Shown here: positions 1,845 to 27,272 of the stretch, piece after piece
Layout: each line of letters starts with the position of its first letter
How positions within the stretch are numbered: position 1 is the first letter of the stretch
Assembly (NCBI RefSeq): GCF_900115365.1
Contig: NZ_FOWD01000023.1
Coordinates: 1-64,000, forward strand
Origin: Anaerocolumna aminovalerica
GTDB lineage: Bacteria > Bacillota > Clostridia > Lachnospirales > Lachnospiraceae
Direction of reading: 5' to 3'
DNA: 64,000 nt
Notes under the pieces: model-generated
Database searches by the model: none
Seen by the model: only the letters and a program-made list of their open reading frames with translations
Told to the model about the DNA's origin: nothing
Program-made: the position numbers and the translations under genes

Positions 1845-2561
1845 TTATTCTCTAACCAGTGCCCTTAGTACATCTTTTATATCCCTGCTTTCACACCGGA
1901 TAAAGTTTACCGGTTCATTTATGTGTTCTAAATAGTGGGCGTCGGAATTGGTTATAATATTGCAGTTAGTCAGATAGGGGTTTTCTTTTCTTAGATACTC
2001 CATCTTATCCTTGTCATATAATTCCACACAGGAGAATTTCGATTCCGGGGGAATAAATCCCAGATTATATAACAAACTGTTGGCAGTTCGATCAATATGA
2101 GCCGGAAGCATTATCCCATTATAGCCTTTCACCAAATCATATACCTCCTCAAAGGATATGTCGGTGGCATTAATCAGAAGATATGGTTCTTCACCTATGA
2201 CCTTATCCTCTTCATTATAGATTTGCTGTCTGCCGAATATGGACTGGTTATTAGGAACGGGAAGCAGATGTTCATAAACATAACCGTCAAAGTTCATGGC
2301 ATCCTCCAGTCTGGAGAATAAGCAGAGCACATGCACTTCTTCCTGAGTACATAATTCCATTCCCGGAATTGCTATTATGCCATACTGCTTTGCCATTGCA
2401 AGAAAGGCCGGACAGTTCTTGCTGGAATTATGGTCTGTCAAAGCCACCACGTCTAATTTCTTTAGCGCAGCCATGGCAATAATGTTAGCGGGGGTCATGT
2501 CATTATCGCCACAAGGAGATAAGCAGGAATGCAGATGGAAGTCATAAGCCAGCTTAATCAT
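1845..2561 (-). CDS. PHP-domain phosphoesterase
   Basis: A cytosolic metal-dependent phosphoesterase-like protein of the PHP superfamily, 238 aa, a usual length for the stand-alone form. The N-terminal HxH pair is at residues 9 and 11 (DFHLHS), followed by TDHNS (Asp43, His44), Glu69 and His77, PAHIDR near residue 155 and a terminal NSDAH motif near 207. These are the metal ligands of the PHP trinuclear site, so the enzyme should be active. The substrate is unknown. Its start overlaps the end of the DRTGG gene upstream by eight bases, so it is the last gene of the minus-strand H-cluster sensor operon. In this setting it could remove phosphate from a protein or nucleotide signal made by the neighbouring ATPase; that is inference. 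Confidence 0.85.
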   Translation of the reverse strand: MIKLAYDFHLHSCLSPCGDNDMTPANIIAMAALKKLDVVALTDHNSSKNCPAFLAMAKQYGIIAIPGMELCTQEEVHVLCLFSRLEDAMNFDGYVYEHLLPVPNNQSIFGRQQIYNEEDKVIGEEPYLLINATDISFEEVYDLVKGYNGIMLPAHIDRTANSLLYNLGFIPPESKFSCVELYDKDKMEYLRKENPYLTNCNIITNSDAHYLEHINEPVNFIRCESRDIKDVLRALVRE

Positions 2562-2889
2562 GGAGTAATTGATACACAGTTAAAGCAGCTTCAAAAATGG
2601 GTTTATCTGTGCTAAGTACCGTAATCTTTTGTGTCTTTGCCTTTTCCAGCCCGTTCTGGTCCAGTTCTGCCCCCTCAGCTAATATAATGCAAGCTACATC
2701 TGCTAATTTTGCCACTGCTAATGTATTAATATTTCCCATAACTGTTACCCATGCACTGTCAGCAGGTGCTTTACTCATAGCAATGCTTAGCAAATCACAG
2801 CAAAATGGTTCGGATATGCATTGCCCTAAATTATATCCAACTTGATTTACTTTAAATACATCCTTATCTATTAATTCTTGTACTGTCAT
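2554..2889 (-). CDS. DRTGG-domain protein 1
   Basis: A small single-domain protein (111 aa from the chosen start) of the DRTGG type, which elsewhere sits beside CBS domains and binds nucleotides. The motif VLSTDKPIFEAA near the C terminus aligns with LLSTGHRMFSAC in the second DRTGG protein at 4898-5251, so the two are paralogues. The start is uncertain. An ATG at 2901 lies one base after AAAGGAG, while the ATG at 2889 (MTVQELIDKD) is 13 bases after it. I chose 2889 because it aligns with MTVNDIKSIL of the paralogue. It lies 51 bases after the H-cluster gene and overlaps the PHP gene, so the three are probably co-transcribed. It may bind a nucleotide or act as an adaptor between sensor and output; no catalytic residues are visible. 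Confidence 0.8.
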   Translation of the reverse strand: MTVQELIDKDVFKVNQVGYNLGQCISEPFCCDLLSIAMSKAPADSAWVTVMGNINTLAVAKLADVACIILAEGAELDQNGLEKAKTQKITVLSTDKPIFEAALTVYQLLHD

Positions 2890-2940
2890 CTTAATAACCA
2901 TGCTCCTTTCACAGGTTGAAAAGAATGAAATTCCTTCAAC

Positions 2941-4395
2941 CTATTCCTTTTCTGTATCCTCTTTATTGGAATACGTTATAGCTTTGTTTTGATTGTCCAG
3001 CATTGAGATTTCATCCGATATCTTATGAATATACTGACGCAGAATGTGTATGCAGTCTTTTTCACTGGCGACGCCTCTTACAACATCTTCTGCCAGTGCC
3101 TTACAAGTGGGTGCCCCACAAGAACCACAATCAAGCCCCGGGAACTCTTTACATAATTCCTCTACTTTAGAAATCATGGCTATACTTTCTTTCATATCCA
3201 TTCCTAATTTAAATACCGGTTCATATTTCACTTTGTGAGTCCAATAAACATTGGTCTTATCCAATCCTGTTCTGTTGATACCATTTGAATTTGCCATGCC
3301 TTGATTGGCTTCACCTTTATTGGTTTTACCTACATCTTGGTTCTCTGGGGATAGGACTTTCTTTGAACCCCCAGCTCCGATGTTGGTATCATTAATATGA
3401 TTACGGGCAACCGGCAGGTATTTTCTTAACCGTTTCAATTTTACCCTTGCTACAAATGGGTTTTCCACAGTCAAAACACCGCCTACACAACCGCCGTTAC
3501 AGGCATTTAGTTCTATGAATTCCAGCATACCGATCTTTTGGTCTTCTAAGTCCTCCAATACCCGGATTACATTCTCGATTCCATCTGCTGCAAGATAGTT
3601 ATCTGTCAGCAAGCCTCCTGCTTCTCCTCCGGTTCCGCCCCAACTGATTCCAATCTTACCGGATATAGATAGTTCTTCTATCTCCCCTGATACTTCTACC
3701 TCTTTCATTAAGGAAAGCAGCCTGGGATAAACATCTTTTATAGCTAATACCCCGTCTACCTCACTTTTATCAATTCCAAGGGGAGTCCTTACTGCGCTAA
3801 CCTTTGCGGGACAGGGAGAGATAAATATAATACCTATTTTTTCAGAAGAAAGCCCTGTCTCCTTCATAGCCTTTTCCCTTGCCAGGGAAGCTGCCAAATC
3901 CACCGGAGCCAGTATAGGCAGTAAATGTTCTATAAGATTTGGAAAACGAACTCTTATCAGTCGTACTACAGAAGGGCATGCCGTGCTGATAATAGGCCAT
4001 TTGTCTTCATTCTCTTCCACATATTTTCTGGACATTTCAGACACCAATTCGGCAGCACCGCTGACTTCATATACATCATCAAATCCCATACCCTTAAGAG
4101 CGGTAAGAACTATATTAATATCATCCAGGTTATTAAACTGGCCATACAGGGAAGGTGCCGGCAATGCAACCGTATATTCAAATTGATCCAAGATACTGAT
4201 GGGATCATAAAAAGGCAGTTTTGCATGGTGAGGACAAATCCTTATACATTCACCACAATCAATGCAGAACTTCTTAGTAATTACGGCTTTCCCGTTTCTT
4301 ACTCTAATAGCCCCGGTTGGACACCTTTTTATACAGTTGATACAACCTTTACATAAATTTTCGTCCAAACGAACCGCATTAAAAAACTTATCCAT
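2941..4395 (-). CDS. Sensory-type [FeFe] hydrogenase-like protein with H-cluster and C-terminal Fe-S domain
   Basis: Cytosolic H-cluster protein, 484 aa. Residues 15-25 and 44-54 each hold a four-Cys [4Fe-4S] ferredoxin motif. The H-cluster domain (about 70-330) has the four expected cubane ligands: Cys140 (STACPS), Cys195 (SPCPAK), Cys299 and Cys303 (NACNGGCVGG). Ala139 stands where catalytic enzymes have the proton-relay Cys of TSCCP. The same replacement is described for the HydS-type sensory hydrogenases (groups C and D). A Gly/Asn-rich linker (about 340-380) leads to a further four-Cys cluster (Cys423, 426, 431, 448; CGSCGAPTC). No PAS domain is present, so it is not the classical PAS-fused HydS. 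It most likely senses H2 or redox state rather than turning over H2 quickly. The gene sits between the two DRTGG genes and an RsbW/RsbT-like ATPase. Confidence 0.85.
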   Translation of the reverse strand: MDKFFNAVRLDENLCKGCINCIKRCPTGAIRVRNGKAVITKKFCIDCGECIRICPHHAKLPFYDPISILDQFEYTVALPAPSLYGQFNNLDDINIVLTALKGMGFDDVYEVSGAAELVSEMSRKYVEENEDKWPIISTACPSVVRLIRVRFPNLIEHLLPILAPVDLAASLAREKAMKETGLSSEKIGIIFISPCPAKVSAVRTPLGIDKSEVDGVLAIKDVYPRLLSLMKEVEVSGEIEELSISGKIGISWGGTGGEAGGLLTDNYLAADGIENVIRVLEDLEDQKIGMLEFIELNACNGGCVGGVLTVENPFVARVKLKRLRKYLPVARNHINDTNIGAGGSKKVLSPENQDVGKTNKGEANQGMANSNGINRTGLDKTNVYWTHKVKYEPVFKLGMDMKESIAMISKVEELCKEFPGLDCGSCGAPTCKALAEDVVRGVASEKDCIHILRQYIHKISDEISMLDNQNKAITYSNKEDTEKE

Positions 4396-4478
4396 GGCTT
4401 TTCCCCTCTTACTTATACACTGCTAATTTTGTTATCTCATTTAATTACATTACTTCTTTACAACGCAGAATAATCTTG

Positions 4479-4901
4479 TTACAGGAATACCTTCATAGTC
4501 ACTTTGGTACCTGTCCCAATTTCGGATTCTATTTGCATTTCATCAGAATATTTCTTCATATTTGGTAATCCCATACCGGCTCCAAATCCAAGAGAACGGA
4601 TATTATCCGGAGCTGTGGAATATCCTGCCTGCATAGCTTTTTCTATATCTTCAATTCCAGGTCCTTTGTCTTCCAGAATCATACTGATCTCTGTCGGAGA
4701 TATAATAACATCTATGCTTCCGCCATTTGCATGAATCACCATATTAATTTCACCTTCATACATGGCAATTGCCACCTTGCGTACAATCTCTGGTTTTACG
4801 CCCATTTTCTTTAATTTACTTTTAACATCACTGGAAGCTTCTCCTGCTCTAGTAAAATCATCAGCAGAAACTTGATAGGTTAAGACGATTTTATCACTCA
4901 A
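4479..4901 (-). CDS. RsbW/RsbT-like ATP-binding protein (GHKL ATPase)
   Basis: A 140-residue stand-alone GHKL ATPase domain of the anti-sigma factor/serine kinase type. The N box is MYEGEINMVIHAN, the G1 box is LEDKGPGI, and GFGAGMGLPNMKKY is the G2 region with lid glycines. This is the arrangement of RsbT and SpoIIAB-like serine kinases, and the length is typical. No histidine phosphorylation domain is present, so the target would be another protein, possibly on Ser or Thr. Its start overlaps the upstream DRTGG gene by ATGA. No anti-sigma antagonist (STAS) or sigma factor gene is nearby, so the usual partner-switch partners are missing and the target is unknown. A link to the H-cluster protein 83 bases downstream is inferred from the operon. 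Confidence 0.85.
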   Translation of the reverse strand: MSDKIVLTYQVSADDFTRAGEASSDVKSKLKKMGVKPEIVRKVAIAMYEGEINMVIHANGGSIDVIISPTEISMILEDKGPGIEDIEKAMQAGYSTAPDNIRSLGFGAGMGLPNMKKYSDEMQIESEIGTGTKVTMKVFL

Positions 4902-5251
4902 CGGTATGTTGCACCTCCACGTAAACCTTTTTCATACAGAAGGCCACAAGCAGAAAACATTCTATGACCGGTAGATAATAATACAATACCCCTTTCCCGG
5001 GCCAAAGCAATCATACCTTCATCGGGCATTTTTCCCCGAACAAATACAATACATACAATATCCATCATCTCGGCAGTGCGAATAGCCTGCATATTGCACA
5101 GACCCGTTAATAATACCGATTGGTCTTTATTAAACGCAAGAACATCACTCATCATATCAGACCCGCAGGCGGTGTGAACTTCTTTCTCCAAATGTTCTTC
5201 ACCGGAAATAAGACGTGCCTCTAGTATAGATTTTATATCATTTACGGTCAT
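4898..5251 (-). CDS. DRTGG-domain protein 2
   Basis: A 117-residue DRTGG-domain protein and paralogue of the 2554-2889 product. It has SVLLTGLCNMQAIRTAEMMD and a C-terminal LLSTGHRMFSACGLL, plus several Cys (CGSD, LCNM, SACG) absent from the paralogue. The frame extends upstream to 5341, but the ATG at 5251 is the better start: AAGGAGG stands 11 bases before it and the protein then begins MTVNDIKSIL, matching the paralogue. It is the first gene of the minus-strand operon and overlaps the ATPase gene by four bases. A role as nucleotide-binding or docking module is likely from the family; the ligand is unknown. Confidence 0.8.
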   Translation of the reverse strand: MTVNDIKSILEARLISGEEHLEKEVHTACGSDMMSDVLAFNKDQSVLLTGLCNMQAIRTAEMMDIVCIVFVRGKMPDEGMIALARERGIVLLSTGHRMFSACGLLYEKGLRGGATYR

Positions 5252-5395
5252 GGAATAGGTTTCCTCCTTATATACAATGGTTACAAATTTAATATCCTTT
5301 CTATTTAAAATTAGTATAACATTGCTATTTTTAATTTTCAACTGGTATTCCTTGTTTTCAAATTTCGATAATATCTCTTATTTAATTATTAATTT

Positions 5396-5446
5396 TTGTG
5401 GATTTTCTAAAATATTGTGGATTTTTTATCAATATCATGCTATACT
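5396..5446 (+). promoter_or_regulatory. Paired 11-base direct repeat and -10 box before the catalytic hydrogenase operon
   Basis: The sequence TTGTGGATTTT occurs at 5396-5406 and again at 5415-5425, 19 bases apart, close to two helical turns. A -10-like TATACT follows at 5441-5446 with no good -35 box. Two repeats on the same DNA face just upstream of a poor -35 region is the layout of an activator-dependent promoter. They lie between the divergent sensor and catalytic operons. Confidence 0.45.
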
Positions 5447-5502
5447 TAGTTCGGCTAGAATTTACATTACAGACTTAGTAGTGAATTGAAGGAGGTTAAA
5501 AA

Positions 5503-5997
5503 ATGGGTTCCAAGAAAAAAACTGTCCCTTTTGCAGGAACGAAAGAGCAAGAAGCGGAACTTCTCAAAGTCATTAAAACACATAAGAATGACGAAGGTGC
5601 ATTAATGCCAATATTACAGGCAGCACAAGACATATATGGTTATCTTCCGATTGAAGTTCAAACCATGATCTCAAATGAGTTGGATATACCATTAGAAAAA
5701 ATTTATGGCGTTGTTACCTTTTACTCTCAATTTTCATTAAATCCAAAAGGCAAATATAAAATATCTGTCTGTCTGGGAACTGCTTGTTATGTAAAGGGTT
5801 CAGGAGATATCTATTCTAAATTAATGGAATTATTGCATATCGAAGGTGGCGAATGTACACCTGACGGTAAATTCTCTTTAGAAGCATGCCGTTGTATCGG
5901 TGCTTGCGGTCTGGCTCCTGTACTTACTGTAAATGATGATGTGTACGGAAGATTAACTGTTGATGATATAGAAGGTATTTTAGCAAAGTATGAATAG
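5503..5997 (+). CDS. hydC: HydC/NuoE-type [2Fe-2S] subunit of the hydrogenase complex
   Basis: The small thioredoxin-fold subunit of a soluble NAD-linked [FeFe] hydrogenase, 164 aa, full length for the NuoE/HydC/HymA family. The four cluster ligands are Cys90 and Cys95 (CLGTAC) and Cys131 and Cys135 (CIGAC), the pattern that holds one [2Fe-2S] cluster. The N-terminal helical region (about 15-75) matches the NuoE fold, including EKIYGVVTFYSQF. The start follows a clear GAAGGAGG. It is the first gene of the plus-strand operon that ends with HydA at 10771. In the assembled trimer it carries electrons between HydB clusters; the electron-bifurcating use of NADH and ferredoxin is a family inference. 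Confidence 0.92.
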   Translation: MGSKKKTVPFAGTKEQEAELLKVIKTHKNDEGALMPILQAAQDIYGYLPIEVQTMISNELDIPLEKIYGVVTFYSQFSLNPKGKYKISVCLGTACYVKGSGDIYSKLMELLHIEGGECTPDGKFSLEACRCIGACGLAPVLTVNDDVYGRLTVDDIEGILAKYE

Positions 5998-6014
5998 GAG
6001 CTACATGCCATATT

Positions 6015-6572
6015 ATGATGACGGAAATTTCTCTTAATGTATTAGACGTTGCCCAGAATTCTATTGAGGCAGGTGCATCTCATATAATAATAGATATTAA
6101 GGCAGATCATAAAGAAGATTATTTAAAAATTGTAATATCAGATGATGGTTATGGGATGACGGACAGCCAATTGGCAAAAGTGGATGATCCATTTTATACC
6201 ACAAGAACTACCAGAGCAATCGGTCTTGGTGTGCCTTTTTTTAAATATGGAGCAGAAATGACTGGGGGAACCTTCACTATAGTGTCAGAAGCAGGAAAAG
6301 GTACGGAAGTTACCGCCGCCTTTGTGTTATCACATATTGACAGAATGCCTCTTGGTGATATAACCAGTACAATGCTTTCGCTGATTACCTGTAATGAAAA
6401 TATTCATTTTATCTATTCTTACAGTGTTGATGGACGTTGCTTCACTCTGGATACGAAAGAGTTTCGGGAAATATTAGGGGATATTTCTTTCCAGGAACCG
6501 GAGGTATCTAACTTTATCAAAGAGTATCTGCAAGATCATAAAGATGAGGTTGACCAGGGAGAATACATTTAG
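6015..6572 (+). CDS. GHKL ATPase domain protein in the hydrogenase operon
   Basis: A 185-residue protein whose first 115 residues are a histidine-kinase-type ATP-binding domain. It has the N box DVAQNSIEAGAS, the G1 box ISDDGYGMT, DPFYTTRTTRAIGLGVPFFK (a G2/F-type region) and GKGTEVTAAF. There is no phosphoacceptor His domain and no sensor domain; the C-terminal 70 residues are unassigned. Such small ATPases are often found between hydC and hydB in clostridial hydrogenase operons. It lies 17 bases after hydC. A GGAG is 14 bases before the chosen ATG, a long spacing, and a second ATG follows at once (MMTE). It may phosphorylate a regulator or act in cluster assembly; the role is unknown. Confidence 0.8.
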   Translation: MMTEISLNVLDVAQNSIEAGASHIIIDIKADHKEDYLKIVISDDGYGMTDSQLAKVDDPFYTTRTTRAIGLGVPFFKYGAEMTGGTFTIVSEAGKGTEVTAAFVLSHIDRMPLGDITSTMLSLITCNENIHFIYSYSVDGRCFTLDTKEFREILGDISFQEPEVSNFIKEYLQDHKDEVDQGEYI

Positions 6573-6659
6573 AACATGGTATGTATATAAATTGTTAAGA
6601 TATATGGATTAAGCATGTTAAAATTGAATACTAAAAAATCCCTATTATTTTACTGGGGA

Positions 6660-6677
6660 TTGTCAAATATTTAACAT
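6660..6677. promoter_or_regulatory. Candidate Rex operator
   Basis: TTGTCAAATATTTAACAT is an 18-base near-palindrome matching the Rex consensus TTGTTAA-N4-TTAACAA at 12 of 14 fixed positions. Rex is the NADH/NAD+-sensing repressor of fermentation and hydrogenase genes in many Firmicutes. The site lies 32 bases before the [2Fe-2S] ferredoxin gene at 6709, inside a 136-base gap that may hold a second promoter. A hairpin AATCCCTA...TGGGGATT precedes it (about 6637-6660). Confidence 0.5.
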
Positions 6678-6708
6678 TTCTGTAGAATTTATAAGGAGGA
6701 AGAGATAT

Positions 6709-7083
6709 ATGAAAACTCTGGAAGAGTTAAAAGCCATCAGAGAAAAGATGCAAGGCCAAATTGGTTTAAGATCAGAAGATTCTGAAAAAACCAGAGTGGT
6801 TGTAGGTATGGCTACCTGTGGTATAGCAAGCGGTGCCAGACCTGTATTGACTGCACTTTCTGATGCTGTTCAATCAAAGAATTTATCAAATATTGCTGTC
6901 ACCCAAACCGGCTGTATCGGTTTATGTCAATATGAACCCATTGTAGAAGTAATGGAACCTGGAAAAGATAAAATAACTTATGTAAAAATGACTCCTGAAA
7001 AGGCTCTTGAGGTTGTTGAGCAACACTTAATCCGTGGTCAGGTAGTAAGTAAATACACCATAAGTTCCGAAGGGAGGCTGTAA
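6709..7083 (+). CDS. [2Fe-2S] ferredoxin-like thioredoxin-fold protein
   Basis: A 124-residue protein of the thioredoxin-like ferredoxin family found next to hydB in clostridial hydrogenase operons. Cys37 (ATCGIASGA), Cys69 and Cys73 (TGCIGLC) are visible. The fourth ligand seen in the HydB N-terminal copy (CGGTGC) is absent here: the CGIASGARP motif has only one Cys. The cluster would then need a different fourth ligand. AAGGAGG stands before the ATG, and the gene ends three bases before hydB, so translation is coupled. It probably relays electrons to HydB or assists it. The Rex-like site at 6660-6677 is just upstream. Confidence 0.85.
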   Translation: MKTLEELKAIREKMQGQIGLRSEDSEKTRVVVGMATCGIASGARPVLTALSDAVQSKNLSNIAVTQTGCIGLCQYEPIVEVMEPGKDKITYVKMTPEKALEVVEQHLIRGQVVSKYTISSEGRL

Positions 7084-7086
7084 TTT

Positions 7087-8874
7087 ATGTATCGTTCACA
7101 TATTTTAGTTTGTGGTGGTACCGGCTGTACTTCCTCCGGAAGTGTAAAGATTATGGAAGTTCTGCAAACAGAGATTGAAAAACAGGGATTGGCAAAAGAA
7201 GTTTGCGTTGTACAAACCGGCTGCCATGGCCTATGTGCATTGGGTCCAATCATGGTAGTATATCCGGAAGCAACTTTTTATTCCATGGTTAAAGAAGAGG
7301 ATATTCCTGAGATTGTATCCGAACACTTATTAAAGGGAAGAGTGGTATCCCGCCTTGTATATGAAGAAACCATTACAGATGAAGGTATTAAATCTCTTAA
7401 TGAAACTGATTTTTATAAAAAACAACATAGAATTGCACTTCGTAATTGCGGTGTTATTAACCCGGAAAATATTGAAGAGTACATTGGAACCGGCGGTTAT
7501 GAAGCTTTAGGTAAGGTATTAACCGAATATACTCCTGATCAGGTAATTCAGGATCTGCTAGACAGCGGACTTCGCGGTCGTGGAGGCGGCGGTTTCCCTA
7601 CCGGCTTAAAGTGGAAACTTGCAAAAGCAAATGATGCAGATCAAAAATATGTATGCTGTAATGCCGATGAGGGTGACCCCGGTGCATTCATGGATCGTTC
7701 TGTACTGGAAGGAGATCCTCATGTTGTGCTGGAAGCAATGGCCATTGCCGGTTATGCTATCGGTGCTTCTCAAGGATATATTTATGTACGTGCTGAATAT
7801 CCAATTGCAGTACAGCGTCTGGAATTGGCTATTAATCAGGCACGTGAATATGGGCTTTTAGGAAAAGACATCTTTGGAAGCGGTTTTAACTTTGATATTG
7901 GATTAAGACTTGGCGCAGGTGCTTTCGTTTGCGGTGAAGAAACAGCCCTTATGACGTCTATTGAAGGAAATCGCGGTGAGCCTCGTCCCAGGCCTCCTTT
8001 CCCTGCTCAAAAAGGTCTCTTTGGAAAACCAACTATCTTAAACAACGTAGAAACTTATGCAAATATACCACAAATTATTTTAAATGGACCCCAATGGTTC
8101 TCCTCTATGGGTACAGAGAAATCCAAGGGAACAAAAGTATTTGCCCTTGGGGGAAAAATCAAAAATACCGGCCTTGTTGAAATCCCTATGGGTACCACTC
8201 TCCGGGAAGTAATTGAAGATATCGGCGGCGGAATCCCAAATGGAAAGAAATTCAAAGCAGCCCAAACCGGTGGTCCATCCGGCGGATGTATTCCAGTAGA
8301 GCACTTTGACATCCCAATTGATTATGATAACTTAATTAGCATTGGATCTATGATGGGGTCTGGTGGACTTATTGTAATGGATGAAGATAATTGTATGGTT
8401 GATATAGCTAAGTTCTTCTTAGAATTTACTGTGGATGAATCCTGCGGTAAATGTACCCCATGCAGAATCGGAACCAAACGTTTATATGAAATTCTTGATA
8501 AAATTACAAAAGGCCAAGGTACTTTTGAAGATTTGGATAAGTTGGAAGAACTTTGTTATCATATAAAAGAAAACTCCCTTTGCGGTTTAGGCCAGACTGC
8601 ACCAAACCCTGTATTATCCACCCTTCGCTATTTTAGAGATGAATATGTATCTCACGTAGTAGATAAGAAATGTCCTGCCGGAGTTTGTAAAGCACTATTA
8701 TCCTATGTCATTGATGCGGATAAATGTAAAGGTTGTACTTTATGTGCCAGAGTCTGTCCAAATAATGCAATTGAAGGAACGGTAAAAGAAGTGCATATGA
8801 TTCATCAGGATAAATGTGTGAAATGTGGTGCATGTGTGGAAAAATGCCGCTTTGGAGCTATTTCCAAGAGATAA
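7087..8874 (+). CDS. hydB: NAD(H)-binding flavoprotein subunit HydB (NuoF-like) of [FeFe] hydrogenase
   Basis: The 595-residue flavoprotein subunit. An N-terminal [2Fe-2S] thioredoxin-fold domain has Cys9, Cys14, Cys46 and Cys50. The NuoF core follows with the NADH and FMN signatures GLRGRGGGGFPTG (161-173) and CNADEGDPGAF (191-201). A [4Fe-4S] motif SCGKCTPCR lies near residue 452 and further Cys near 495 (NSLCGLG). A C-terminal two-cluster ferredoxin (about 540-592: CKGCTLCARVCP, CVKCGACVEKC) completes it. This domain set is that of trimeric HydABC enzymes that couple NADH and reduced ferredoxin to H2. All visible cluster ligands are intact. The gene is three bases downstream of the ferredoxin-like gene and 154 bases upstream of hydA. 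Confidence 0.95.
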   Translation: MYRSHILVCGGTGCTSSGSVKIMEVLQTEIEKQGLAKEVCVVQTGCHGLCALGPIMVVYPEATFYSMVKEEDIPEIVSEHLLKGRVVSRLVYEETITDEGIKSLNETDFYKKQHRIALRNCGVINPENIEEYIGTGGYEALGKVLTEYTPDQVIQDLLDSGLRGRGGGGFPTGLKWKLAKANDADQKYVCCNADEGDPGAFMDRSVLEGDPHVVLEAMAIAGYAIGASQGYIYVRAEYPIAVQRLELAINQAREYGLLGKDIFGSGFNFDIGLRLGAGAFVCGEETALMTSIEGNRGEPRPRPPFPAQKGLFGKPTILNNVETYANIPQIILNGPQWFSSMGTEKSKGTKVFALGGKIKNTGLVEIPMGTTLREVIEDIGGGIPNGKKFKAAQTGGPSGGCIPVEHFDIPIDYDNLISIGSMMGSGGLIVMDEDNCMVDIAKFFLEFTVDESCGKCTPCRIGTKRLYEILDKITKGQGTFEDLDKLEELCYHIKENSLCGLGQTAPNPVLSTLRYFRDEYVSHVVDKKCPAGVCKALLSYVIDADKCKGCTLCARVCPNNAIEGTVKEVHMIHQDKCVKCGACVEKCRFGAISKR

Positions 8875-9028
8875 TTTGAATTTAAGATTTTTGTGGAATT
8901 TGTGTTGAAGGAATTCCCTTAAACCATGAACCATAAAAATATCCTTATAAGTTAACGATATGATTTTGATTTCTCAATAATATTATTTAATCACATTATT
9001 AAGATTATCAAATAGAAAAGAGGTATAT

Positions 9029-10771
9029 ATGGAGACGGTAAATATTAAAATTAACGGCATGGATATAGCTGCACCAAAAGGTTCTACCATATTGGAAGCA
9101 GCCAGATATGCTCATATAGATATTCCTACTCTTTGTTTCTTAAAGGAGATTAATGAAATCGGTGCATGCCGTATCTGTGTTGTAGAAGTTAAGGGCGCAA
9201 GAAGCCTTGTAGCATCTTGTGTATATCCAATTAATGAGGGTATGGAGGTATGGACGAATACTCCGAAAGTATTAAGCTCCAGAAAAAGAACCCTTGAATT
9301 AATCTTATCCAATCATGATAGAAAATGTCTTTCCTGCGTTAGAAGCGGAGATTGTGAATTACAGAAACTCTGTAAAGACCTTAAAGTTGAAGATGAAGAA
9401 TTCTATGATGGTGAAAGAACCCTCTATGAATTAGACGAATCCGCTGCACATATGTATCGGGATAACAATAAGTGTATTCTATGCAGACGTTGTTCCGCAG
9501 TATGTGAGAAGACTCAGGCAGTTGGTGTAATTGGACCTAATGAGCGTGGATTTAAAACAGTGATTTCCTCTGCCTTTGAAATGGGTCTTGGTGAAACCAG
9601 CTGTGTTTCCTGCGGACAATGTATCGCAGTCTGTCCTACAGGCGCTATCGCAGAAAAAGATAATACGGAAGAAGTATTCCAGGCTATTGCTGATCCAAAG
9701 AAATATGTAATTGTTCAAACCGCTCCTTCTGTAAGAGCCGGACTTGGTGAAGCATTCGGCCTTCCTATAGGAACCAATGTTGAAGGAAAAATGGTAGCTG
9801 CCTTACGCCGTCTGGGATTTGATAAGGTATTCGATACAGACATTGCAGCGGACCTTACTATTATGGAAGAAGCTCATGAATTCATTGAAAGAGTTCAGAA
9901 CGGCGGAACCCTCCCAATGGTTACCTCCTGTTCTCCGGGGTGGATTAAATACTGTGAACATTATTTCCCTGATATGACAGATAATTTATCCACTTGTAAA
10001 TCACCAATGCAAATGTTTGGTGCCACCACAAAGACCTATTATGCCGAGAAAATGGGTATTAATCCAAAGGATATCTTTATGGTAGCAATTATGCCATGTA
10101 CTGCTAAAAAGTTTGAAATCGGACGACTTGATCAAGACGCCGCAGGTGTTCCCGATGTAGATGTATCCTTAACTGTTCGGGAATTAGGTAGAATGATTGA
10201 AAGAGTAGGTATTGACTTTAGCTCACTGCCAGATGAGGACTTTGATTCTCCTCTTGGTATTTCAACCGGTGCCGCAGTTATATTCGGTGCAACTGGCGGT
10301 GTTATGGAAGCAGCTCTAAGAACTGCTGTAGAAACCTTAACCGGGGAAGAATTGGAGAAAGTAGATTTTACTGAAGTCAGAGGAACAAAAGGCATAAAAG
10401 AAGCTACTTATCATGTGGCAGGAATGGATGTAAAAGTTGCTGTAGCCTCCGGACTAAGGAATGCCAAAGAATTATTAACCAAAGTGAAAAACGGAGAAGC
10501 GGATTATCACTTTATTGAGATCATGGGCTGTCCGGGCGGCTGTGTAAACGGCGGCGGTATGCCTCAGGTTCCAGCAAATGTTAGAAACTTTACAGATGTT
10601 AGAGCTCTTCGTGCCAAAGTGTTATATGATTTGGATGCGGGTATGCCAATCAGAAAATCCCATGATAATCCGGCTATCAAGGAATTATACGATACCTATT
10701 TTGGTAAACCTGGCAGCCATAAGGCTCATGAAATATTACACACAAGTTATGTAAAGAGAAGTGTAAACTAG
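9029..10771 (+). CDS. hydA: Catalytic [FeFe] hydrogenase subunit HydA
   Basis: The 580-residue catalytic subunit. Ligands in order: [2Fe-2S] Cys36, 47, 50, 64; the His-ligated [4Fe-4S] His96, Cys100, 103, 109; two [4Fe-4S] sites at Cys149-159 and Cys192-202; then the H-cluster domain with TSCSPGW (299-305), MPCTAKK (Cys357) and MGCPGGCVNGGG (Cys501, Cys505). A small-subunit-like tail follows (YFGKPGSHKAHEILHTSY). The spacing Cys357 to Cys501 equals that of C. pasteurianum HydA. The first motif reads TSCSP rather than TSCCP: Ser302 stands 55 residues before Cys357, the position of a cubane ligand by simple spacing. I recall the same variant in other clostridial HydA proteins. It is the last gene of the operon, with a terminator at 10862. 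Maturases HydEFG are not in this window. Confidence 0.95.
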   Translation: METVNIKINGMDIAAPKGSTILEAARYAHIDIPTLCFLKEINEIGACRICVVEVKGARSLVASCVYPINEGMEVWTNTPKVLSSRKRTLELILSNHDRKCLSCVRSGDCELQKLCKDLKVEDEEFYDGERTLYELDESAAHMYRDNNKCILCRRCSAVCEKTQAVGVIGPNERGFKTVISSAFEMGLGETSCVSCGQCIAVCPTGAIAEKDNTEEVFQAIADPKKYVIVQTAPSVRAGLGEAFGLPIGTNVEGKMVAALRRLGFDKVFDTDIAADLTIMEEAHEFIERVQNGGTLPMVTSCSPGWIKYCEHYFPDMTDNLSTCKSPMQMFGATTKTYYAEKMGINPKDIFMVAIMPCTAKKFEIGRLDQDAAGVPDVDVSLTVRELGRMIERVGIDFSSLPDEDFDSPLGISTGAAVIFGATGGVMEAALRTAVETLTGEELEKVDFTEVRGTKGIKEATYHVAGMDVKVAVASGLRNAKELLTKVKNGEADYHFIEIMGCPGGCVNGGGMPQVPANVRNFTDVRALRAKVLYDLDAGMPIRKSHDNPAIKELYDTYFGKPGSHKAHEILHTSYVKRSVN

Positions 10772-27128: not shown

Positions 27129-27272
27129 ATAAATTCAAATGTACAACCAATTCGAAAAATTTATAGAGATTTTTTCTCCTTATTGTGGTATAATATTTAA
27201 TGCATTTTATAGGCAATTGGCTTTCAGTCTTTCCGGAATAATAAAAGACTGGCAAATGGAAAGGAAACCAAT

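Follow-up and report, generated by a model that had tools for sequence, protein, structure and literature searches.

How does a sensory [FeFe] hydrogenase that carries no PAS domain pass its signal on? The question, which is posed for group D hydrogenases in the accessible text of PMC8163306, is raised by an operon of five genes in Anaerocolumna aminovalerica. The operon occupies the minus strand at 1845–5251 of the window, by which we mean the whole 64,000-nucleotide stretch analyzed (assembly GCF_900115365.1, contig NZ_FOWD01000023.1, positions 1–64,000), and it encodes an H-cluster protein (HydS), a GHKL ATPase, two DRTGG-type proteins (DRTGGa and DRTGGb), and a PHP-family phosphoesterase. 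We consider it rather probable that the operon is a modular switch, in which HydS would be the sensor, the ATPase and then the DRTGG proteins would receive its signal, the PHP protein would reset the system, and the adjacent ferredoxin/NAD enzyme would be the target. From the upstream end, the five genes are:

4898–5251, minus strand: DRTGGa, the upstream DRTGG-type protein, 117 amino acids (ATG start at 5251; alignment; fusions to the ATPase)
4479–4901, minus strand: SpoIIAB/RsbW/RsbT-type GHKL ATPase, 140 amino acids (TTG start; Pfam, residues, fold of an ortholog)
2941–4395, minus strand: HydS, predicted group D (M2e) sensory-type [FeFe] hydrogenase, 484 amino acids (Pfam, residues matching TamHydS)
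2554–2901, minus strand: DRTGGb, the downstream DRTGG-type protein, 115 amino acids (Pfam score below the cut-off; fused to the HydS C-terminus in loci L160 and L274)
1845–2561, minus strand: PHP-family phosphoesterase, 238 amino acids (Pfam, metal ligands, model)

The first-pass annotation of this DNA had described five tightly packed minus-strand genes, and both overlaps that it reported (4901/4898 and 2561/2554) are present in the list of open reading frames (ORFs). That list gives 4898–5341 for DRTGGa, with TTG at 5341 and ATG at 5251 as the choices of start; the annotated ATG is the better one because, on the minus strand, AGGAGG closely precedes it.

By its sequence, the window's H-cluster protein belongs to the sensory-type [FeFe] hydrogenases of group D (M2e), the defining features of the group being taken from the accessible text of PMC8163306 and PMC10407848. 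It matches Pfam Fe_hyd_lg_C (107.5 bits) and FeS (44.4 bits), both above cut-off. The two features that had been singled out earlier, an alanine in place of the proton-relay cysteine and an extra C-terminal Fe-S cluster, are both borne out: Ala139 stands directly before the invariant Cys140, at the relay position (C299 in CpI), and the cluster motif is C423-X2-C426-X4-C431-X16-C448. Together with E258, E295, and D271, Ala139 corresponds to A137, E252, E289, and D265 of TamHydS, as numbered in the portion of PMC10407848 consulted. Across 201 aligned HydS rows the relay position is Ala in 154, Ser in 39, Thr in 6, and His and Asn in one each, and the group D proton path is kept (E258 in 194 of 201 rows, E295 in 200 of 200, and D271 in 191 of the 199 rows shown). 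The four H-cluster cysteines are present wherever the row covers the column (200 or 201 rows), the eight N-terminal cysteines of two [4Fe-4S] motifs in 201 of 201, and the C-terminal CX2CX4CX16C motif in 198, the remaining three sequences ending early. A PAS domain, which at the C-terminus marks group C (M2f), gave no Pfam match in the window's HydS at an E value of 0.01. On these group D features we discarded a fast catalytic group A enzyme, and the sensory-type assignment of the first pass stands. We take Ser193 and Asn297 to lie at the positions of M353 and M497 of CpI; Ser193 fits TamHydS, whereas TamHydS has Leu in place of Asn297. By eye, residue 297 is Asn in 6 and Leu in 10 of 16 aligned rows; in the window's clade this position, close to the H-cluster, is Asn.

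The ATPase scores 40.1 bits on Pfam HATPase_c_2, above the cut-off, and its E49 and N53 (N-box), D78-G80-G82 (DxGxG), T96, and glycine box/lid are kept in 216 of 216 rows. Its fold was taken from an AlphaFold2 model of an orthologous DRTGGa::ATPase fusion in locus L233 (predicted local distance difference test (pLDDT) 80.7, predicted template modeling score (pTM) 0.65), in which the ATPase part matches SpoIIAB (1til; template modeling (TM) score 0.81, E = 1.3e-9) and RsbW (6m36; TM score up to 0.86 by target length). In sequence, and in the fold of this ortholog, the protein is thus nearest SpoIIAB and RsbW, in line with the earlier description of an RsbW/RsbT-like ATPase. The DRTGG part of the same model matches the DRTGG protein AF1212 (2ioj, TM score 0.79 by target length), and the DRTGG fold matches include 3l2b, the CBS and DRTGG regulatory region of a pyrophosphatase. 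Both DRTGG proteins had been named as such in the first pass; however, DRTGGa and DRTGGb reach 22.9 and 22.7 bits on PF07085, slightly below the gathering cut-off of 25.2, and the label therefore leans on the orthologous fold match and on the DRTGG domain of the fusion in L160, which scores 25.7 bits. DRTGGa has D32, S35, D36, T49-G50-L51, Q55, R58, E61, and R72-G73-K74 invariant in 20 aligned rows. The PHP assignment draws on 35.7 bits on PF02811 (cut-off 26.4), a PHP fold in the model (pLDDT 96.6), and metal-binding His/Asp/Glu ligands kept in 187–191 of 191 rows, in agreement with the phosphoesterase originally proposed.

Conservation of the gene set was examined in two collections of loci. 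The HydS-profile set holds 80 loci, the best 80 of 579 relatives drawn from at least 600 pattern matches; as it was gathered via HydS, it cannot reveal cassettes without HydS. The phylum sample covers 348 genomes of the window's phylum and yielded 140 loci from 133 genomes, out of 147 that bear the ATPase; the 140 include seven second loci of genomes already counted, and the pair L161/L232 is one and the same place. Genes were counted as present by their domain midpoints, and loci ending too soon were excluded. In the HydS-profile set DRTGGa is present in 79/79 loci, DRTGGb in 71/74, PHP in 68/70, and all five genes in 66/69; in the 126 HydS-bearing sample loci the corresponding figures are 103/121, 113/119, 101/114, and 89/111. 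The first-pass annotation had made its proposal depend on this neighborhood being conserved in other genomes, and it is. In the tally of 348 genomes, HydS was found in 136 and the ATPase family in 153 at an E value of 1e-15, or 147 after six weak matches were dropped; both occur together in 134 genomes, the ATPase without HydS in 13, and HydS without the ATPase in 2. As a separate observation, family f50 (L153, L201) has a second HydS and DRTGGb, without ATPase or PHP, adjoining Fdx-HydC-HydB-HydA; the other HydS of these genomes (L154, L264) stands with the ATPase, DRTGGb, and PHP, and no DRTGGa was found there.

In this analysis the strongest indication of a physical complex comes from gene fusions, as every link of the chain DRTGGa-ATPase-HydS-DRTGGb is fused in some locus. 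DRTGGa::ATPase fusions occur in 10 loci and ATPase::HydS in a single one (L189, 7293–9170, 626 amino acids), and HydS carries DRTGGb at its C-terminus in L160 and L274. These fusions support the linkage proposed in the first pass, HydS being tied in one locus to the ATPase and in two others to a DRTGG protein. In a FastTree tree of 136 ATPase domains, which is built on few columns and poorly resolved, nine of the ten DRTGGa::ATPase rows group together and L234 stands apart.

HydS itself is exchangeable. Four of the 13 genomes with ATPase and no HydS were not counted as true absences (L216 has a split gene, L224 and L225 lie at contig ends, and the match in G469 is at a contig start), leaving nine that hold the ATPase without HydS; the HydS-less locus L265 was not counted, as its genome G406 has HydS on another contig. 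In four of the nine, a CBS pair is fused to the ATPase (G235, locus L219; G262, L220 and L221; G294, L222; G462, L227 and L228), and in the other five the ATPase has neither HydS nor CBS (G154, G181, G303, G447, and G481; L217, L218, L223, L226, and L229). Genome G445 has HydS in one cassette (L195) and CBS::ATPase without HydS in a second (L230), and CBS::ATPase occurs alongside HydS in G184 (L161/L232) and G415 (L193). A CBS pair on the ATPase either substitutes for HydS or accompanies it. On the tree the CBS rows lie among HydS rows, with fewest changes of 8 for HydS presence and 5 for CBS. The first-pass annotation mentioned neither this exchange nor the placement of the cassette beside Rnf nor the recurrence of a second GHKL ATPase, HATP2.

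The cassette is also a regular neighbor of energy-converting enzymes. As described in the first pass, the operon of the window lies back to back with a catalytic hydrogenase, the divergent genes HydC-HATP2-Fdx-HydB-HydA at 5503–10771:

5417–5447, plus strand: hydC promoter element GTRGATTTTT-N10-RTGNTANAAT, with an extended -10 and an unusual -35 (matrix learned from intergenic sequences)
5503–5997, plus strand: HydC (NuoE-like), with which the divergent hydrogenase operon begins (ORF, Pfam)
6015–6572, plus strand: HATP2, second GHKL ATPase with a C-terminal extension (Pfam; recurs with the cassette)
6709–7083, plus strand: Fdx, [2Fe-2S] thioredoxin-like ferredoxin subunit (Pfam 23.7 bits, slightly below the cut-off of 24.8)
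7087–8874, plus strand: HydB (NuoF-like) (ORF, Pfam)
9029–10771, plus strand: HydA, A6 NADH-dependent (bifurcating-type) catalytic [FeFe] hydrogenase (NF040763, 911.9 bits against a cut-off of 765)

Among loci with full flanks, HydABC lies near the cassette in 41/45 of the HydS-profile set (34 divergent, 7 on the same strand). In the HydS-bearing loci of the sample, HydABC is near in 81/95, Rnf in 10/95, and either in 83/95; the hydrogenase genes follow on the same strand in 73/95 and stand back to back in 8/95. Of the CBS cassettes, L161, L221, L222, and L227 have Rnf nearby and L219 and L193 have HydABC; neither was found near L220, L228, or L230. HATP2 is near the cassette in 41/45 HydS-profile loci, 94/104 sample loci, and 89/95 HydS-bearing sample loci, and it stays beside the cassette even where HydABC was not found near (L159, L178). 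At the level of genomes, A6 hydrogenase occurs in 251 of 348, and 137 of the 147 ATPase-bearing genomes have it and 10 do not; the cassette is hardly found without an A6 hydrogenase in the genome, and many A6 hydrogenases occur without the cassette. Further genes recur in the same neighborhoods. A Rex-like gene lies within 5 kb in 17/104 sample loci with full flanks and an RseC-like gene, a name we assume for these proteins, in 14/104 (examples are L194, L197, L169, and L178), and at L218 (4636–6869) what we take to be NfnAB is flanked by a DRTGGa-ATPase pair with Rex on one side and by an Rnf cluster on the other.

We propose that the operon would encode a cytoplasmic signaling module with H2 and/or low-potential electrons as its input and the adjacent ferredoxin/NAD enzyme as its target. 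HydS would bind H2 at a slow H-cluster, and its redox state would travel via the N- and C-terminal Fe-S clusters to the SpoIIAB/RsbW-type ATPase, which HydS would contact directly. The ATPase would act on both DRTGG proteins, as a kinase or an ATP-gated clamp, so that these may occupy the role of the STAS proteins in classical partner switching, and the PHP phosphoesterase would reset the module by dephosphorylating either a partner or a nucleotide ligand. HydS as sensor would be a plug-in part, replaced or joined elsewhere by the CBS pair on the ATPase, and the target would be HydABC (or Rnf), reached via its expression or directly. We infer the signal, the direction of signaling, the kinase reaction, the PHP substrate, and HydABC as target.

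Several results weigh against this proposal. Neither HydABC nor Rnf was found near 12/95 HydS-bearing sample loci with full flanks, and 114 of the 251 A6-hydrogenase genomes are without the ATPase. Of the sample loci with room for the gene, HydS-bearing or not, 18/134 are without DRTGGa, 10/132 without DRTGGb, and 20/127 without PHP, so that none of the three is indispensable; in L193, counted as lacking DRTGGa by the presence rule, the gene sits farther upstream. No DNA-binding protein is encoded among the five genes of the window's operon. The roles we predict for the ATPase, DRTGG, and PHP proteins are drawn from sequence and structural models, and the mutual placing of the DRTGG and ATPase domains in the L233 fusion model is uncertain (pTM 0.65). 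Coevolution of HydS and the ATPase, tried as a signal of specific contact, was dropped: strong pairs number 11.8 per 10,000, against 12.3 for the control pair HydC-HydS. Counts for HydS are higher with PHP, DRTGGb, and HATP2 than with the ATPase, and random re-pairing gives 0.7–0.9; the signal is therefore mostly shared ancestry.

The alternative that survives best concerns the step assigned to the PHP protein. Its nearest solved structures are EndoQ, TM0559, BAD_1165, RNase AM, and an AMP-bound hydrolase, and since the closest folds (EndoQ, RNase AM, and the AMP-bound hydrolase) act on nucleotides or nucleic acids, a nucleotide substrate fits the model at least as well as a phosphoprotein. 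PHP could then set the level of an adenine-type nucleotide that the DRTGG proteins, and the CBS pair where present, would bind; this ligand would control the ATPase, and HydS would modulate the complex. The replacement or accompaniment of HydS by CBS domains and the match of the DRTGG fold to 3l2b speak for such a messenger. However, PHP is missing from 20/127 loci, and PHP enzymes share one fold, so that the match leaves the substrate undefined; we think the messenger unlikely, at about one chance in a handful.

A role for HydS as a helper rather than a sensor, passing electrons or giving protection while the GHKL ATPase acts as a chaperone that assembles or repairs HydABC or Rnf, is somewhat less probable still. 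The presence of an A6 hydrogenase in 137 of the 147 ATPase-bearing genomes, often adjacent, the conserved Fe-S and H-cluster ligands, and the reversible conversion of H2 by TamHydS (PMC8163306, in the text available) speak for a helper. Against it stand the exchange of HydS for CBS with the remainder of the cassette retained, the 114 A6-hydrogenase genomes without the ATPase, and the arrangement in family f106 (L179, L260, L286, L294), in which ATPase and HydS, without DRTGG or PHP, have a large histidine kinase and a response regulator of the OmpR type as neighbors in 4/4 loci. Two of these four loci also encode a 637-amino-acid protein (L179, 6437–8347; L260, 6037–7947) composed of an [FeFe]-hydrogenase H-domain, a C-terminal FeS domain, and MCPsignal (106 bits). 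Its H-cluster cysteine motifs appear intact by eye, CheW adjoins it in L179, and from these domains it is possibly an H2 chemoreceptor; our literature search for a protein joining hydrogenase and methyl-accepting chemotaxis protein (MCP) chemoreceptor found none.

In a classical partner switch, the ATPase would be either an anti-sigma factor or an activator of the RsbT type, and its STAS protein, SpoIIE-type phosphatase, or sigma factor would come from another part of the genome. This reading draws on the likeness to SpoIIAB and RsbW and on three SpoIIE-domain matches and one STAS protein in the genome, but it is very improbable, as the only Pfam STAS match is a 140-amino-acid frame on contig C73, none of the three SpoIIE matches is on the window's contig (one lies between PAS-type hydrogenase genes of contig C66), and no STAS or sigma protein was seen by eye among the 25 commonest neighbor clusters. 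Having only one STAS candidate in the genome lowers the odds; from its length, this protein is perhaps the sporulation protein SpoIIAA. The earlier remark that no STAS or sigma partner is present holds for the whole genome as far as Pfam STAS is concerned, with that single match on another contig. The genome also encodes a PAS-type (group C) sensory hydrogenase on contig C66 (L002, 1498–3237), whose neighbors there are a SpoIIE-domain gene and L003, another hydrogenase protein; L005 is a further one.

The hydC promoter of the divergent loci carries a conserved element. In 41 of 57 intergenic sequences of divergent loci it scores above 12 bits on the hydC strand, the best of 171 block-shuffled sequences reaching 10.0, with a matrix learned from the same intergenic sequences that it scores. 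In 1.40 Mb of HydS-profile loci, 47 of 50 matches above 20 bits precede HydC, which, because the matrix was learned from the same sites, shows only that the element is peculiar to the hydC promoter. Its unusual -35 part would suit a putative activator. The window contains a second match at 27165 (22.0 bits). A Rex operator was rejected as a candidate, the full TTGTTAA-N4-TTAACAA being present in 0/60 intergenic sequences; the half site TTGTTAA occurs in 15/60 and relaxed operator forms in 1 and 3.

The general kind, in which a sensory hydrogenase is paired with a switch ATPase, is already known. The accessible text of PMC3561251 (2012) and PMC3608648 (2013) classes group D proteins as sensory and places them upstream of bifurcating hydrogenases, near a kinase, and group D hydrogenases near a kinase and HydABC appear also in that of PMC8163306. 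TamHydS (PMC8163306, PMC10407848, PMC13104023) shares the Ala at the relay cysteine, the group D proton path, two N-terminal and one C-terminal cluster motifs, and the lack of PAS; the word DRTGG is absent from all three texts, and nothing was met in the portions consulted on PHP, fusions, or CBS exchange. The group C (M2f) PAS hydrogenases (HydS of Ruminococcus albus and T. maritima, HfsB of Thermoanaerobacterium) are likewise H-cluster proteins beside other hydrogenase genes and taken as sensors, but they have PAS in the same protein, the hfs operon has a serine-phosphatase-like protein, and DRTGG is unmentioned in either text (PMC11837493, PMC10055695). SpoIIAB, RsbW, and RsbT, the best fold matches, share with the ATPase the GHKL fold, the N-box Glu/Asn, and the glycine-rich lid; in contrast, the conserved set of the cassette has no STAS substrate or sigma factor but includes DRTGG proteins and a sensor, either redox or CBS. 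The Clostridium perfringens pyrophosphatase of 3l2b likewise has CBS and DRTGG in one regulatory region; there the regulated enzyme is presumably in the same protein, whereas here the ATPase and, mostly, HydS are separate. A literature search linking DRTGG with hydrogenase, Rnf, or anti-sigma found nothing relevant, subscription papers lying outside it; among these is Calusinska 2010, reportedly the source of the M2e grouping, which may hold more on its neighborhood. Within the literature searched, three things appear new: the DRTGG/PHP partners, the gene fusions, and the exchange of sensors. Only tentatively, and with doubt prevailing, do we extend this to an undescribed architecture, a DRTGG/GHKL hub into which an H-cluster protein, a CBS pair, or both would plug as sensors and which would control the ferredoxin-NAD enzymes HydABC and Rnf, perhaps directly and without a DNA-binding protein, with DRTGG in the STAS role.

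The fusions name likely direct partners of HydS, and the CBS exchange is a natural control; the loss or replacement of the sensor in relatives makes message passing by such sensors testable. Through its link to HydABC and Rnf, the cassette may bear on the control of the main electron valves of anaerobes, which would be useful for hydrogen and ethanol production.

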